DNA of 5,521 nucleotides, taken from the NCBI GenBank assembly GCA_947630515.1, contig CANRHY010000069.1, forward strand, positions 1 to 5,521, written 5' to 3'. Of the stretch, positions 1 to 5,521 are shown piece after piece; positions within the stretch are counted from its first letter, which is position 1; every line of letters starts with the position of its first letter. A program made the translations under genes and the position numbers. Source of the stretch: an uncultured Bacilli bacterium. GTDB taxonomy: Bacteria > Bacillota_I > Bacilli_A > RF39 > UBA660. The notes beneath the pieces were generated by a model. It was given only the letters and a program-made list of their open reading frames with translations. It did not search any database and was not told the origin of the DNA.

Positions 1-1484
1 AAGTAGTAATAGAAACAGAAAGTAATGTAACAGTAGAATTTAATGTAAGTGGAGGATATAAAGGAAAAGAAGAAGTATCAACAACATTAAATTACATAGC
101 AGTAACAACAAAAGGATATGAAGTAACAGTAAATGTAACAGGAGGACATGTAGATAAAAGCCCAAAACAAGTAGAAGAAAATGGAACAGTAACATTTACT
201 GTTACAGCAGAAGATGGATATACAACAGAAGGAATGACAGTAGAAGGGGATAGTTGTACAATAGATGGGGATACAGTAAAAGTGGAAACAGTAAAACAAG
301 ATATTACATGTACAGTAACATTGCAACAAGCAGGAATAAAAGTAGCAGACTTTTATAATAAAATGAAAGAACAATACCCAAAAACTATAGACACCCAAAG
401 AAATAGTTTTAGTAGCACCAATACAACACCAAGTGCATATATGGAAACAGGAAACTTCATAGAAAGTAATATAACAGGTGCAAGCAATTTAAAGAAAAAT
501 GTATATTATTATAGTGGAGCAGTAACAAACAACTGGGTGTCATTTGCAGGATACTACTGGAGAATAATAAGAACAAATGAAGATGGAAGTTTGAGATTAT
601 TGTATGGAGGACCAGAGGCTGATAAAGGTGCTAATGAAAATCAATATATAGGAATCACAAAGCAAACATATAGCACATATACAAATACAATGTATGTAGG
701 ATTCAAATATGGAAGTTCGGGTACATTAAGTAATAATAGGCAAAATACAGAGAACTCACCAATACTTGGATTAGATTCAGATACAAATGATAGTGGAAGC
801 GGTGTAACATTGAATGGCTGGTATAATAAAAATATAAAGAAAGACGATGGAAAAACAAATTACCAATGGGATAAGTATATAAGCAAGACAGCAGTATATT
901 GTAATGATAGGGCTCATTTAGGAAACTATGCAGCAACTAGCACAATGTACTATGCTGGAGCACAAAGATTAACAGATGCCGCATTTGGTTATGGAGGAAT
1001 TGGCGGGACTAATTACATTCATCCGTCATATAAATGTGGAGTAGACTATAAAGGAGATGTAATATCTGGGTCTGGTTCAGCAAGTGACGCCGATAAATTC
1101 AGCGGAGTAAATAGTGAAGCTAAATTAGAAAATTCAATAGGCCTAATGACAGCAGACGAAATCGTGTATGCAGGAGGAAGTACAATACCAAATGATTCGA
1201 AAGTATATTATAATGTAACTACAAACGGAAAGAAAAGTGCAACCGGGAGTGAGGAGTGGTTAACGATGACCCCGTACTCCTTCGTGAGTACGGCGTCGTG
1301 GTTTAGAGTGTTTTCCAATTCGTATTCTGGGGCTATTGCTAGTGGGAATCTCAGCTTCGTCTACGCCGTGCGTCCCGTCCTTTCCCTGAAGTCTTGCGTT
1401 CTGCTTTCTGATTCGACCGGCACTAACACAGACCCATTCGTAGTACAACCTATCTCAGCTGAGTGTGCTCAAGCTAATAACTAA
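1..1484 (+). CDS. Large surface-type protein with beta-repeat and C-type-lectin/FGE-like C-terminal domain; candidate DGR target (5' end outside window)
   Basis: The reading frame is open from base 3 to the TAA at 1482-1484, giving 493 visible residues; the start lies upstream. Residues about 38-108 form a Thr/Val-rich beta repeat with GTVTFTVTAEDGY and two cysteines (85, 103), resembling divergent InlB/Big-type repeats of extracellular proteins. From about residue 150 the sequence resembles the ligand-binding domains of gut Firmicutes surface proteins: YYWRIIRTNEDGSLRLLYGG around residue 186, LMTADEIVYAGG near 381, WLTMTPYSF at 419 and VRPVLSLKSC at 456-465. The last block is the usual end of C-type-lectin/FGE-like folds in DGR target proteins. 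No sortase motif or transmembrane helix is seen at the C-terminus, so any export signal or anchor should be in the missing N-terminus. GC rises from about 27% at the left edge to about 52% in 1261-1440. Surface location and ligand binding are inferred; the domain assignment rests on motif recognition. Confidence 0.8.
   Translation, partial: VVIETESNVTVEFNVSGGYKGKEEVSTTLNYIAVTTKGYEVTVNVTGGHVDKSPKQVEENGTVTFTVTAEDGYTTEGMTVEGDSCTIDGDTVKVETVKQDITCTVTLQQAGIKVADFYNKMKEQYPKTIDTQRNSFSSTNTTPSAYMETGNFIESNITGASNLKKNVYYYSGAVTNNWVSFAGYYWRIIRTNEDGSLRLLYGGPEADKGANENQYIGITKQTYSTYTNTMYVGFKYGSSGTLSNNRQNTENSPILGLDSDTNDSGSGVTLNGWYNKNIKKDDGKTNYQWDKYISKTAVYCNDRAHLGNYAATSTMYYAGAQRLTDAAFGYGGIGGTNYIHPSYKCGVDYKGDVISGSGSASDADKFSGVNSEAKLENSIGLMTADEIVYAGGSTIPNDSKVYYNVTTNGKKSATGSEEWLTMTPYSFVSTASWFRVFSNSYSGAIASGNLSFVYAVRPVLSLKSCVLLSDSTGTNTDPFVVQPISAECAQANN
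1257..1412 (+). other. Candidate DGR variable region (VR) at the 3' end of the surface-protein gene
   Basis: Composition breaks sharply here. Bases 1261-1440 are 94/180 G+C, against 9/60 in 1501-1560 and 16/60 in 1-60. In 1291-1410 only 13 of 120 coding-strand bases are A, in a gene otherwise very rich in A. Codons 1323-1364 are tat, tct, ggg, gct, att, gct, agt, ggg, aat, ctc, agc, ttc, gtc, tac: 12 of 14 end in C or T, as expected if AAC/AAT codons of a template repeat were randomised at the first two positions. The A-poor block from 1365 (A-VRPVLSLKSCVLLS) would be the conserved 3' end, including the initiation-of-mutagenic-homology site. Position near the 3' end of a lectin-like gene also fits. 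Exact borders cannot be set without the template repeat. The alternative is a conserved, GC-richer domain acquired by transfer and not under active mutagenesis. Confidence 0.68.
1272..1293. repeat. Perfect 8-bp inverted repeat with 6-nt loop inside the candidate VR
   Basis: The left arm ccgtactc (1272-1279) is exactly complementary to gagtacgg (1286-1293), with loop cttcgt containing TTCG. It lies within coding codons for P-Y-S-F-V-S-T. Five of the 8 pairs are G-C, making it far more stable than anything else expected in this AT-rich DNA. DGRs are known to use hairpins near the target, but those lie downstream of the VR, so a functional role here is speculative and chance is possible. Confidence 0.5.
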
Positions 1485-2167: not shown

Positions 2168-4003
2168 ATGGCAATTTCAAAAACAAGTTTTATAAATTAT
2201 ACTAAATGTAGAAGATATGCAGCACTAGAAGAAATACATAACGATAAATTATCTAGTGACATGTCTTTAGAAGAATACATGAAAGAAGAAAAAGAAGACC
2301 AAAAAAAAGAATTACTTGTAGGAATGTTTGAAGAAACAGATGATGGTGAAATAGATAAAACCATAAAAATAGATAAACAATTAGAAGCCCTTATGGAGTA
2401 CTATAAAGAAGTAGAAATAAATGCAGGACTTGAAGTAGAAAGACTTTTTGGGGGCGAAACAGTTTATAGTTTAGACACATACCACCAAGAAAGTTTTGAT
2501 TTTTCACTAAATGGAATAAAATATTTATGCTTTGTAGATATATATAATGAAAGTAATAACGAAATAAACATAATAGAAGTAAAAGCAACAACATCAAGAA
2601 AATACAAAAAATTAGAGTATCACATAGATAAAGAAAAATATCCACTTTTTATAAAACCAGATAAATTTTACCATTTAGCCCCTGACCCTAAAATATCAAA
2701 AGACTACCCTGATAAAATAAATAAACTACTTAATAGATACTCTGAAGAAGGAAAATACATTTACGACTTATCAGTCCAAAGATATTTTATAGAAGGTTAC
2801 TTAAAAGAAAACAAAATAGATAAAAAAATAAATTATTTTTTAGCTGTACTTAATAACGAATATGAGTATGATGGATATAAAGAAGGAGACAAAAGAGTAT
2901 TTAATACAGACGCTTATGGTAACAGAATAATAGATATCTATGAACTTAATGACATAACAAAAAAATATCAACCACTCATAGACGAAGAAAGAAAAAACTT
3001 AGAGCACTACATATTTGAAAGCGACCCTTCCCCTTGTAAAGTAAGCCCAGCCTGTGCCCTAAAAAAGAACACTGAGTGCAAATACAAATCAATATGCTTT
3101 AATATGTTACCTGAAAAAAATGCAAGCTTTAACTATAAAAGATTCGTATGCTTTAAAGATGGAGATGTAAAATATAATAAGTATGACCTAATAAATGCTG
3201 GATACTATAAATTAGATGACGTACCAATAGAATGGCTAACAAGCGAAAATCATAAAATACAAAGAGACTGCTATGATAATAACAAAATATACATAAACAA
3301 AGAAAAAATAAAAGCAGGCTTAAATAGCTTAACATATCCAATATATCACTTAGACTTTGAAACACTACCTTGCCCAATACCAAGATTTAAAGGTGAGCAT
3401 CCATACTACCAAAGCCCATTTGAATTTTCTCTTCACATAGAAAAGTCTCCTGGAGTATGTGATAAAGAATTAGATAACTATGTCTTCTTAGCAAGAGGGT
3501 GGGAAGATGAAAGATTAGAACTTGTCCGTGCCTTAGTAGAAAAAATCCCAATCCTAGAAACAGGTGGCTGCATGCTAGCCCAAAATGTAACATTTGAAAA
3601 AGGAAGAATAAAAGAATTATCAGAAATATTTCCTGAATACAAAAAAGAACTACTTGCAATAAGAGAGTCTGCTAGAGACTTACTAGAAATAATAGATAAC
3701 AATAAAGAACTATACAAAAGCCTAGGATTTAGTGATTATGACTCAAGTACAATGAATTACTATAATAACTTACAAAGTGGCTCATTTTCAATCAAAAAAA
3801 CACTACCATTATTTACAAATCTAAGTTATAGTGACCTAGAAATTCACAACGGTACAGAAGCCTTAGTAGAATATGCAAACTATAAAAACATGACTGAAAT
3901 CGAAAGAGACAGAAAACAAAATGCCCTAATAGAATACTGTAAACAAGATACATGGGCAATGGTAGAAATATTAAGAGGTTTACGTAAGTGTGTAAAAGAA
4001 TAA
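2168..4003 (+). CDS. DUF2779-family protein: Cas4/RecB-like Fe-S nuclease module fused to a DEDDy exonuclease-like domain
   Basis: This 611-residue protein is probably a cytoplasmic DNA nuclease with two catalytic modules. The N-terminal half has the layout of Cas4/AddB-type PD-(D/E)XK nucleases. The opening ISKTSFINYTKCRR has Cys14, and the core includes Asp124 in CFVDIY and the E-V-K triad in NIIEVKA (Glu137, Lys139). Four cysteines at 290, 296, 304 and 310 could, with Cys14, ligate a 4Fe-4S cluster. The C-terminal half carries all three motifs of a DEDDy-type 3'-5' exonuclease: YHLDFETL (Asp396, Glu398), AQNVTFEKGR (Asn473, with Glu477 where Asp is usual), and YCKQD (Tyr590 to Asp594, the Y-x3-D form). 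SFSIKKTLP at 539-546 is another family hallmark. The start follows a strong Shine-Dalgarno. The gene is transcribed separately and lies beside rpoZ and recX. The DUF2779 label and the fold assignments come from motif recognition; substrate and role are unknown, and DNA repair or defence are both possible. Confidence 0.85.
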   Translation: MAISKTSFINYTKCRRYAALEEIHNDKLSSDMSLEEYMKEEKEDQKKELLVGMFEETDDGEIDKTIKIDKQLEALMEYYKEVEINAGLEVERLFGGETVYSLDTYHQESFDFSLNGIKYLCFVDIYNESNNEINIIEVKATTSRKYKKLEYHIDKEKYPLFIKPDKFYHLAPDPKISKDYPDKINKLLNRYSEEGKYIYDLSVQRYFIEGYLKENKIDKKINYFLAVLNNEYEYDGYKEGDKRVFNTDAYGNRIIDIYELNDITKKYQPLIDEERKNLEHYIFESDPSPCKVSPACALKKNTECKYKSICFNMLPEKNASFNYKRFVCFKDGDVKYNKYDLINAGYYKLDDVPIEWLTSENHKIQRDCYDNNKIYINKEKIKAGLNSLTYPIYHLDFETLPCPIPRFKGEHPYYQSPFEFSLHIEKSPGVCDKELDNYVFLARGWEDERLELVRALVEKIPILETGGCMLAQNVTFEKGRIKELSEIFPEYKKELLAIRESARDLLEIIDNNKELYKSLGFSDYDSSTMNYYNNLQSGSFSIKKTLPLFTNLSYSDLEIHNGTEALVEYANYKNMTEIERDRKQNALIEYCKQDTWAMVEILRGLRKCVKE

Positions 4004-4016
4004 ATTTGTAAAATTT

Positions 4017-4047
4017 TTGTAAAAAATTGTCTAATTACTTGTATAAT
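4017..4047 (+). promoter_or_regulatory. Probable rpoZ promoter
   Basis: TATAAT at 4042-4047 is preceded by TTG, as in the two upstream promoters. The best -35 candidate is TTGTAA (4017-4022), with a long 19-nt spacer. The gene's Shine-Dalgarno GAGGAG (4075-4080) comes later here, giving a leader of about 36 nt, longer than for its neighbours. Confidence 0.55.
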
Positions 4048-4089
4048 CTTATTATTAATAGTAATATTAATATAGAGGAGAGTGATAAA

Positions 4090-4287
4090 ATGATTTACCC
4101 TTCAATTGATACATTACTAACAATAGTTGACTCTAAATACAAATTAGTTCATGTCGCAGCTAAAAGAGCCAAAGAAATGTTAGCAAACAATCATCGTCAA
4201 ATGAAAGAAGAAGATTATAAATCAAAAAAAGAAATAGGAAGAAGTTTAGAAGAACTAGAAAAAGGATTATTAAAAGTAGTAGAATAA
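4090..4287 (+). CDS. rpoZ: DNA-directed RNA polymerase omega subunit
   Basis: Omega is the small RNA polymerase subunit that wraps the beta-prime C-terminus and helps core assembly and stability. The 65-residue protein opens MIYPSIDTLLTIVDSKYKLVHVAAKRAKEM. It matches the hallmark Y-P-S-I-D-x-L-L start and the S-K-Y-x-L-V-x-x-A-A-K-R-A-(R/K) helix of Gram-positive omega. The charged helical tail (KSKKEIGRSLEELEKGLLKVVE) is also usual, and the length is normal. ATG 4090 is chosen because GAGGAG lies 9 nt upstream and the family begins there; the longer frame from TTG 4027 would overlap the -10 box. In many Firmicutes rpoZ follows gmk. Here it stands between a nuclease gene and recX with its own promoter and terminator. 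Confidence 0.93.
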   Translation: MIYPSIDTLLTIVDSKYKLVHVAAKRAKEMLANNHRQMKEEDYKSKKEIGRSLEELEKGLLKVVE

Positions 4288-4296
4288 TCTTTTTTT
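4261..4296 (+). terminator. Intrinsic terminator overlapping the 3' end of rpoZ
   Basis: AAAGGATTATT (4261-4271) pairs with AATAATCTTTT (4283-4293) over 11 bp, including one G-U pair. The 11-nt loop is aaaagtagtag. T runs from 4290 to 4296 form the U tract, partly within the stem. The rpoZ stop codon (4285-4287) lies in the descending arm. The stem is AT-rich, so strength is uncertain. Confidence 0.6.
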
Positions 4297-4312
4297 CTTT
4301 CTAAAATTTATA

Positions 4313-4333
4313 TATAATATAAAGAAAGAGGTG
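4313..4333 (+). promoter_or_regulatory. -10 box and Shine-Dalgarno of recX
   Basis: TATAAT at 4313-4318 precedes AGAGGTG (4327-4333), which lies 6 nt before ATG 4340. The -35 position at 17-nt spacing is T-rich and nonconsensus because it overlaps the rpoZ terminator tail. The Shine-Dalgarno fixes the recX start at ATG 4340; the in-frame GTG at 4331 lies inside it. Confidence 0.6.
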
Positions 4334-4339
4334 TTACAT

Positions 4340-5095
4340 ATGAAAATACTTAAATATAAAAAATTATCTAGTGGAAAATATAAAGTAACTTTTGATAGTA
4401 ATGAATTAATATTATATGAAGATGTAATATTAAATAACAACTTACTTATAGAAAAAAATATAACTCTAGAAACTTTAGATAAAATAATAGAAGAAAACAC
4501 ATTTTATGAAGTATACAACAAAGCCTTAAAACAATTAGAATACAAAATGAGAACAGAAAAAGAACTAAAAAAGAACCTAAGTAGATTTAACTATAGTAGT
4601 TTAGTTATAGATAAGGTTGTAGAAAAACTAAAAAGTTTAGGTTATTTAAATGAAGAAAAATACATAGAGGCATATATAAATGATAAAATAAATCTAACTA
4701 AATCTGGCCCATATAAAATAAAAAGAGACCTACTTAATTTAGAATTAGACGAAACTTTAATAGATAACTACTTAAATACTTTACCAAAAAACACATGGCA
4801 AAAAAAACTAGAAAAAGTAATAGAAAAAAAACTAAATACTATGAAAAACCTATCTTTAAGTACTATTAAAAATAAATTAAACATGGAACTATTTAACTTA
4901 GGATATGATAAAGAAGATATAGAATATTACTTATCTAAAATAAATAAAGACGACTCTTCCTCTTTAAAATTAGAATATGAAAAAGCACTAAATAAATATA
5001 GCAAAAAATATAACGGAACTATACTTAACATGAAAATAAAAGATTACCTATATAGAAAAGGCTTTGATATATCTGAAATAAACAATTTACTATAG
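4340..5095 (+). CDS. recX: Regulatory protein RecX (RecA modulator)
   Basis: RecX binds RecA-ssDNA filaments in the cytoplasm and limits or remodels them, damping recombination and the SOS response. The 251-residue protein has the Firmicutes length and layout. A beta-rich N-terminal extension (1-50; KYKVTFDSNELILYEDVIL) precedes tandem three-helix repeats. The first repeat contains YNKALKQLEYKMRTEKELKKNL (59-80), the family's A-x3-L-x3-(M/R)-R-T-x2-E-L signature. It is followed by LKSLGYLNEEKYIEAYINDKI (97-117) and KSGPYKIKRDLLNL (121-134), the conserved G-(Y/L)-(I/L)-(D/N) and G-P-x-x-(I/L) blocks. Less conserved repeats fill 155-250, including FNLGYDKEDIEYYL and YRKGFDISEINNLL. It has its own -10 box and converges with the prsA-like gene. 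recA is not in the window, as is common in Firmicutes. Recognition is firm. Confidence 0.92.
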   Translation: MKILKYKKLSSGKYKVTFDSNELILYEDVILNNNLLIEKNITLETLDKIIEENTFYEVYNKALKQLEYKMRTEKELKKNLSRFNYSSLVIDKVVEKLKSLGYLNEEKYIEAYINDKINLTKSGPYKIKRDLLNLELDETLIDNYLNTLPKNTWQKKLEKVIEKKLNTMKNLSLSTIKNKLNMELFNLGYDKEDIEYYLSKINKDDSSSLKLEYEKALNKYSKKYNGTILNMKIKDYLYRKGFDISEINNLL

Positions 5096-5134
5096 TTAAA
5101 AAAAATCTACAAAAGTGTAGATTTTTTAACTATA
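5091..5134. terminator. Bidirectional terminator between recX and the prsA-like gene
   Basis: An inverted repeat runs from tatagttaaa to ttaactata. The core stem AAAAAATCTAC (5100-5110) pairs with GTAGATTTTTT (5117-5127) around the 6-nt loop aaaagt. The arms continue outward after a two-base difference in A/T count. T tracts follow the stem on both strands. The recX stop TAG (5093-5095) lies within the left arm, and the opposing gene's stop codon begins just outside the right arm at 5135, so one element serves both convergent genes. Confidence 0.88.
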
Positions 5135-5521
5135 CTAATCTAAATCATAAAGTTCATTATATTTTTTCTCTAAATCACTATCAGTAATCTTAATACCATT
5201 TTCTTCTCTTAAAGCAAGTAATGCTTTAGTATTAAAACCATCTTCTGTTTCTAATTCACTAGCAATCTTACTTATAATAGAATCTTTTACTTTATCTAAC
5301 TCTTCTTTATCATTTTGTTTAGTTTTCAAAATAATATGGTATCCATATTGACTCTTTACTGGTGTTAAAGTATATTTACCTACTTCAAGACTTTTAGCTG
5401 CTTCAAAGAAGTTCTCATCATAATTACTTCTATCGTTAAATGTACCTAAAGACCCACCTTTATCTTTAGTTTGGTCATCATCACTTAATTCTTTAGCTAA
5501 AGCACTGAAATCTTCACCATT
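5135..5521 (-). CDS. prsA: PrsA-like foldase, parvulin-type peptidyl-prolyl isomerase (N-terminal part outside window)
   Basis: The minus-strand frame is open from the right edge to the stop at 5137-5135, giving the C-terminal 128 residues. It contains the second half of a rotamase (parvulin) domain. Visible blocks, numbered from the first visible residue, are GEDFSALAKELSDD (2-15), KGGSLGTF (21-28), FFEAAKSLEVGKYTLTPVKS (38-57) and YGYHIILK (59-66, with the conserved His at 62). A helical tail of about 60 residues follows (KEELDKVKDSIISKIASEL and GIKITDSDLEKKYNELYDLD), as in PrsA, where the N- and C-terminal segments pack into a chaperone domain. PrsA proteins are membrane-anchored lipoproteins that fold exported proteins; signal peptide and lipobox would be beyond the edge. 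A soluble SurA/PpiC-type relative is the main alternative, but the context and tail favour PrsA. Confidence 0.85.
   Translation of the reverse strand, partial: NGEDFSALAKELSDDDQTKDKGGSLGTFNDRSNYDENFFEAAKSLEVGKYTLTPVKSQYGYHIILKTKQNDKEELDKVKDSIISKIASELETEDGFNTKALLALREENGIKITDSDLEKKYNELYDLD

Follow-up and report, generated by a model that had tools for sequence, protein, structure and literature searches.

An A-poor variable-region candidate in a target-type gene of an uncultured Bacilli bacterium and arrays of probable, non-coding DGR templates in its genus

The stretch of DNA analysed here, called the window, is the entire contig C69 (5521 bases) of an assembly that comprises 900,548 bases in 126 contigs and is 74% complete. 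The features of its first gene are collected in Table 1, together with the genes of an operon found in other genomes of the genus. A Pfam scan of the protein encoded by 3-1484 gave no domain over cut-off. The AF2 model of its last 379 residues has a mean pLDDT of 92, and a Foldseek fold search of the PDB returned no significant match. Directly after the target-type gene lies a small gene for a Cro/C1-type HTH protein (PF01381, 1498-1728); a target gene of the related genome G004 is likewise followed by an ORF of similar appearance (L076:1152-1373). The remainder of the window (2168-5521) encodes, according to Pfam, a DUF2779 protein, RNA polymerase Rpb6/omega, RecX and a PPIC-type isomerase, which are ordinary neighbours.

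Table 1. Features of the target-type gene in the window and of the RT operon of the genus.
Feature	Position or length	Strand	Basis
Target-type protein gene, product probably surface-exposed	3..1484	+	open frame; 5' end cut by left contig edge
5' conserved block WLTMTP, directly before the variable core	1257..1274	+	sequence
Variable-region (VR) core, 32 codons, A-poor	1275..1370	+	length equals that of the C37 template core
3' conserved block RPVLSLKSCVLLS, RPVLSLKSC at 1371-1397; position of the VR 3' boundary	1371..1409	+	sequence
Avd-like gene	114-117 aa		phrog_3206 'Avd protein of DGR', 2e-10
RT	373-375 aa		reverse transcriptase family of PHROG (1e-74); 8ub7 as best PDB match (E 1e-25)
MutS-domain-I ORF, downstream of RT	136-137 aa		MutS_I over cut-off

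The first-pass annotation had singled out an A-depleted, GC-rich segment of this gene as a candidate variable region of a DGR. A recount returned exactly the figures that it had given, 13 A in 1291-1410 and 94 G+C in 1261-1440, and the segment does lie at the 3' end of the open frame 3-1484, with the conserved block RPVLSLKSC downstream of the core. The stretch 1291-1410 is the lowest in A of all 120-nt stretches in the gene, and on the + strand a 120-nt stretch holds at least 30 A wherever its start is no later than 1150 or no earlier than 1420. Counted per 150 bases, the GC content is 0.17-0.41 away from the segment, and its maximum of 0.52 falls in 1276-1425. A makes up 43.8% of the gene body but 14 of the 96 bases of the core (binomial P 9e-10), and it occupies a single one of the 32 third codon positions of the core as compared to 52% (P 2e-9).

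The gene has numerous paralogues. With the C-terminal protein of the window as query, 31 matches were found in its own genome, itself included, some of these being fragments at contig ends. The same query gave 34 matches in G004, 33 in G006, 29 in G003, 23 in G005, 13 in G001, 12 in G007, 8 in G002 and 6 in G008, and the nucleotide query 1240-1485 found 19 places in the own genome, counting the window. Of the 23 own-genome variable ends examined, which include that of the window, most have the order WWTMSP, variable stretch, AVRPV[VI]SLKSC. As judged from an N-terminal hydrophobic segment (e.g. in L010:1266-2957) and repeat-like parts in the sequences, the family proteins are probably surface-exposed. 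Three loci of G004 (L187, L189 and L190, on C5, C3 and C35) are single frames of ca. 870-905 codons that contain two target domains, each of which has a variable region of its own. In L014 (G000:C22), near 10714-11170, the frame leading into the variable region is GC-rich and resembles part of an unrelated reductase; it is probably a chimeric contig end. A hairpin follows 7 of 22 own target genes, with differing sequences; no hairpin recurring after these 22 genes was found, and the hairpins, perhaps terminators, were set aside as a shared element. No close strains for the window locus occur among the best 120 of 4208 proteins, the first nine of which, as judged by length and contig, mostly look like own-genome paralogues; the others have ca. 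31-46% identity. Many of the entries P0028-P0059 are relatives of 813/814 amino acids that form lone clusters with ca. 37-40% identity to the window protein; they could represent other species' alleles of a hypervariable target.

The variable stretch of many paralogues follows the pattern ..ttc NNc gtg NNc ggc tct NNc NNc cct ggc NNc ttg.., and a search for this cassette with at most 3 mismatches matched 7 of 60 genomes, all of the same genus. The match in the own genome that has AAC throughout lies on the minus strand of contig C37 (L075), ca. 140 nt from a contig end and in a place with no ORF of at least 60 codons. This template, whose core is 35% A, fits 13 of the 23 own-genome regions, with 0 to 12 non-A changes in 62-66 positions compared; the remaining 10, including the window, do not fit. 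In 11 regions, picked for few non-A changes from 19 compared, 168 of 297 A sites but only 16 of 561 non-A sites were changed. Because such picking is circular by itself, counts were also made on unselected and on boundary-selected regions. All 23 regions without selection gave 397/621 changes at A and 336/1173 at non-A sites (p 2e-47), and 12 regions picked by their 3' boundary, which lies outside the compared segment, gave 190/324 and 45/612, with the third base of the AAC codons changed in 16 of 156 cases. In an IMH / IMH* comparison, the sequence after the shared block reads TTTCTCTTTAAT in the own template and TTTCTCTGAAATC in most of the fitting target genes. Membership of the gene in a DGR target family was supported by an AAC template in the same genome from which 13 of 23 regions differ mainly at template A.

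The window copy itself does not show this relation. Compared with the C37 template, its core is changed at 20 of 27 A sites and also at 24 of 51 non-A sites, so that changes of A alone cannot derive it from that template; the randomisation of A with preservation of non-A positions, predicted for this segment, is largely seen in the 13 fitting regions and is not seen in the window core. Both boundaries deviate as well. The window has WLTMTP as its 5' block where most of the 23 regions have WWTMSP, ACCCCG as its 5' boundary where the templates have AGTCCG, and cgtcccgtcctttccctgaagtcttgc as its 3' boundary where 8 paralogues have cgtccggtagtttctctgaaatcttgc. Nor did the predicted template copy, matching the window with mismatches almost only at A, turn up: nine genomes supplied 121 templates, and not one of them fits. 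Under the refuting condition of the first-pass annotation the window copy would fail if it stood by itself, and it is the paralogues that carry the DGR reading.

The 3' flank of the C37 template recurs in all nine genus genomes and occurs in the own genome once, as itself; the flank search was repeated with a unit of G004 as query. Six template units stand in a row on contig C45 of G004. Such arrays had not been foreseen in the first-pass annotation. In total 121 units were obtained (70 in G007, 26 in G006, 7 in G002, 6 each in G004 and G008, 2 each in G001 and G003, and 1 each in the own genome G000 and in G005) by a regular expression with a core length of 70-170 and 25-nt de-duplication, applied to fetched stretches, so that the number lacks some units and includes doubtful ones (e.g. 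G007:C70). The median spacing of units is 317 nt (90 intervals below 700 nt). The units are non-coding. Their core length is a multiple of 3 in 116 of 121 cases and 118 cores have no in-frame stop, as compared to a mean of 15.2 for shuffled cores. Three units of G007:C46 (L163), which end near 9185, 9858 and 10194, have identical cores, suggestive of either recent amplification or an assembly repeat.

The flanks of the units can form a closing stem. Among the 102 units that contain the anchor GAGAAACAA, pairing of the 5' flank with the arm after the anchor gave 10 out of 10 pairs (G-U allowed) in 48 units, where 1.2 were expected from shuffles, and paired changes on both sides of the stem were seen (e.g. 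GGGTAATGTT/AATATTACCC and GGATAATATT/AATATTATCC). In the own template 9 out of 10 pairs can form. An unanchored version of the test, run first, was weak, with 20% of the shuffles reaching the observed median. Rfam gave no match for L075, L082 or the window.

The template cores are themselves diverse, with a significant excess at A columns in four of five genomes. In the five genomes with at least 6 units, columns in which A is the commonest base were compared with the other columns of the core. The diversity in A and non-A columns was.320/.143 in G008,.571/.391 in G006,.579/.348 in G007 and.538/.316 in G002 (p 0.001 or less), and the excess in G004 had p 0.076; the 3' flanks showed no significant A-column excess in any of the five. 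Two neighbouring units of G006 (C6:53825/54160) have 11 core differences, of which 10 are A in the first unit only, none the reverse and one of another kind, and this is the single cleanly one-way case in 42 close template pairs. Another pair of units combines identical 72-nt flanks with 25 core differences. The plainest reading of these sequences would be A-mutagenic copying into the templates; other routes to such diversity may apply, such as duplication followed by exchange from target to template.

In the relatives, different target regions point to different units. The best of the 121 templates came from the own genome of the target for 24 of 30 regions in G004, 21 of 30 in G006, 1 of 7 in G003, 3 of 5 in G005 and 2 of 3 in G007, and for 29 of the 75 target regions in these five relatives the best template score was below zero, which means no real fit. 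Within G004, the regions on C71 and C65 both correspond to unit C45:8260 (non-A changes 0/75 and 1/75), the region C39:2030 to unit C45:8611 (0/73) and the region C24:13994 to unit 6758 (4/76); in G003 the C69 region corresponds to unit C70:5163 (0/72). The three pairs from relatives with non-A changes of 0/72 to 0/75 have 15-23 A changes. A different relation is seen in G006, where the gene C6:55179 and the non-coding unit C49:916 are identical in 125 of 126 positions, the single change being A-to-T at a template A; the identity stops at the cassette edges, and the core of this unit is poorer in A (29/126) than the own template (35%). It is the sole near-identical template-target pair seen. 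G007 has 70 units yet few target genes (one count gave 14 matches, which include template units), and in the three of its target regions that were read the 3' block starts with agacctgta, as compared to cgtcc in the template.

An operon of genes for an Avd-like protein, an RT and a MutS_I protein is present in four genomes of the genus (Table 1). The best PDB match of the RT, 8ub7, is the BPP-1 complex. RTs of the DGR type are characterised by the motif [ILV]GxxxSQ, which replaces QGxxxSP, and in all seven aligned sequences, six of them from genus genomes, IGNMTSQ and YMDD are invariant. Among the NCBIfam models a group II intron one comes closest to the RT, with 100 bits where the cut-off is 300, and the Avd-like gene matched PF22296 and NF033474, both below cut-off. 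With the RT alignment, matches at E 1e-40 were obtained in 88 of 291 family genomes, which are a sample from a larger group. Public RT loci include six in uncultured Bacilli or Firmicutes MAGs, three of these 'Lapin' isolates; a seventh, partial match (L245), on a Pacearchaeota contig from an archaeal MAG, is a distant relative with 48% identity over part of its length. The arrays are not beside the RT operon in the genomes read. A DGR-type RT, an accessory gene and an A-specific template/variable pair, the marks of a DGR, are all present in the genus. Of the RT and the template that had been proposed to lie elsewhere, a template of the family is present on C37 and a DGR-type RT with Avd in the genus; in the own assembly, at 74% completeness, the DGR RT alignment found nothing at E 1e-40. 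Its sole RVT_1 match (L010:8272-9558) was rejected as a DGR RT since it is a group II intron maturase (TIGR04416).

We consider 1275-1370 to be the VR of one target of a chromosomal DGR that is predicted to rewrite ca. 30 paralogues in trans from non-coding template arrays, with a probability of about 0.72. The template RNA would be reverse transcribed by an Avd-RT complex that places random bases opposite A, and the cDNA would then replace the region between the conserved blocks ATGAGTCCG and CGTCC..TTTCTCT. Templates would also serve as targets, so that their cores lose A over time and turn into 'written' variants. The window region would have been written from an array-type template that is missing in the fragmentary assembly. 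The right place in the gene, the length of 32 codons, the A-poverty and the nearly A-free third positions are what makes it look like a written target region, and the single A in 32 third codon positions in particular suggests a template-made core. Against this reading stand the lack of fit of the window core to any of the 121 templates, its two boundaries that are unlike the shared ones, and, in the own assembly, the single template and the absence of a DGR RT.

Either the template of the window was not assembled or the region is a relic, and the latter is the main rival: an old VR that has lost its boundaries and drifts while other targets of the genome are still being rewritten. The boundaries ACCCCG and CGTCCCGTCCTTTCCCT, unlike those of the fitting paralogues, agree with this, as does the lack of fit to a template for 10 of 23 own-genome regions. 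Drift in an A-rich genome should, however, add A, and the window has one third-position A, where the other nine non-fitting regions have 3-10 in 31 third positions and 12 of the 13 fitting ones have 0-1 (the exception, C20, has 4). Moreover, the five changes of the window 3' block relative to the commonest own-genome form are all to C or G. We therefore think a relic unlikely, though clearly ahead of the alternatives that dispense with a DGR.

The arrays could instead be silent cassettes that feed the genes by ordinary homologous gene conversion, without reverse transcription. Tandem non-coding partial copies with cassette edges inside conserved blocks would suit such a process, and so would the single target gene with a nearly exact copy of a cassette. 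Gene conversion would not change A only, whereas the own genome has 168/297 changes at A against 16/561 at non-A sites and the pairs of the relatives have 15-23 A changes with non-A changes of 0/72 to 0/75; with a DGR-type RT and Avd in the genus as well, we regard it as improbable. Hardly credible, finally, is a family of ordinary lectin-like paralogues in which the patch reflects codon usage or horizontal acquisition. The composition break alone would allow it, as the GC-rich core stands out from the 17-41% GC of most of the window, yet a non-coding AAC template explains the patch nearly base by base in 13 of 23 own-genome regions, and for the family as a whole this explanation is already largely refuted.

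If rewriting in trans by a DGR is accepted for the family, a further step is conceivable, namely that the arrays are a self-evolving library. Arrays of up to ca. 70 small-RNA units with a closing stem would be rewritten at A, fresh AAC-rich units exploring new sequences and A-exhausted units storing written variants, to be passed on again almost unaltered to ca. 30 expressed surface genes. We put this forward tentatively, at somewhat less than an even chance. If true, templates would be evolving alleles, the genome could store binding variants and a single RT would serve ca. 30 genes, so that one reverse-transcriptase system would combine heritable memory with search; the reason for the normal sparing of templates would become testable. 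The more than 100 natural template and flank variants should make the RNA features required by the RT readable, and the closing stem already shows. The hosts are represented by MAGs of uncultured Bacilli or Firmicutes, of which three come from 'Lapin' isolates, so the display would probably face host, phage or neighbour surfaces in the gut.

The usual description of a DGR has one unaltered template and one or few targets. Similar to the BPP-1 type DGR with Avd, the system of this genus has the DGR-type RT motif, an Avd-like gene, a template with AAC codons, a variable region at the 3' end of the target gene and A-specific changes. Unlike the BPP-1 type, with its one template adjoining the RT, the genus has arrays of template units, located away from the RT operon in the genomes read, and template cores that are diversified at A. 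In silent-cassette antigenic variation, as in pilin and VlsE, a non-expressed store of variants feeds expressed surface genes. The arrays resemble this in being a store of non-expressed variants and are unlike it in the A-specific mark of copying and in the DGR-type RT of the genus.

As a kind, a DGR with Avd and MSL is already known, and DGRs with multiple targets or a few templates have been published (PMC6642488, PMC3521204, PMC10907252). PMC10053308 lists MSL (PF01624) among the known accessory proteins of DGRs, and the RT of the genus is similarly followed by a MutS-domain-I ORF, which here shares one operon with the Avd-like gene. According to PMC6642488, multiple VRs occur in 271 of 948 DGRs, of which 216 have a single TR, and for some single TRs the number of VR copies ranges from a dozen to hundreds; PMC3521204 describes up to four VRs, and in PMC10907252 one genome has nine loci with 21 VRs. 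As in the genus, one machinery serves several paralogous targets there, also in trans. No template arrays of the present size and no A-directed diversity inside templates were found in the accessible literature, with subscription journals mostly outside the search. The largest TR number in the available text of the three papers (PMC6642488, PMC3521204, PMC10907252) is 6, with 91 TR-VR pairs, in Pseudomonas costantinii, described as an atypical case with few A-to-N changes, whereas the genus has up to ca. 70 units together with A-specific pairs.
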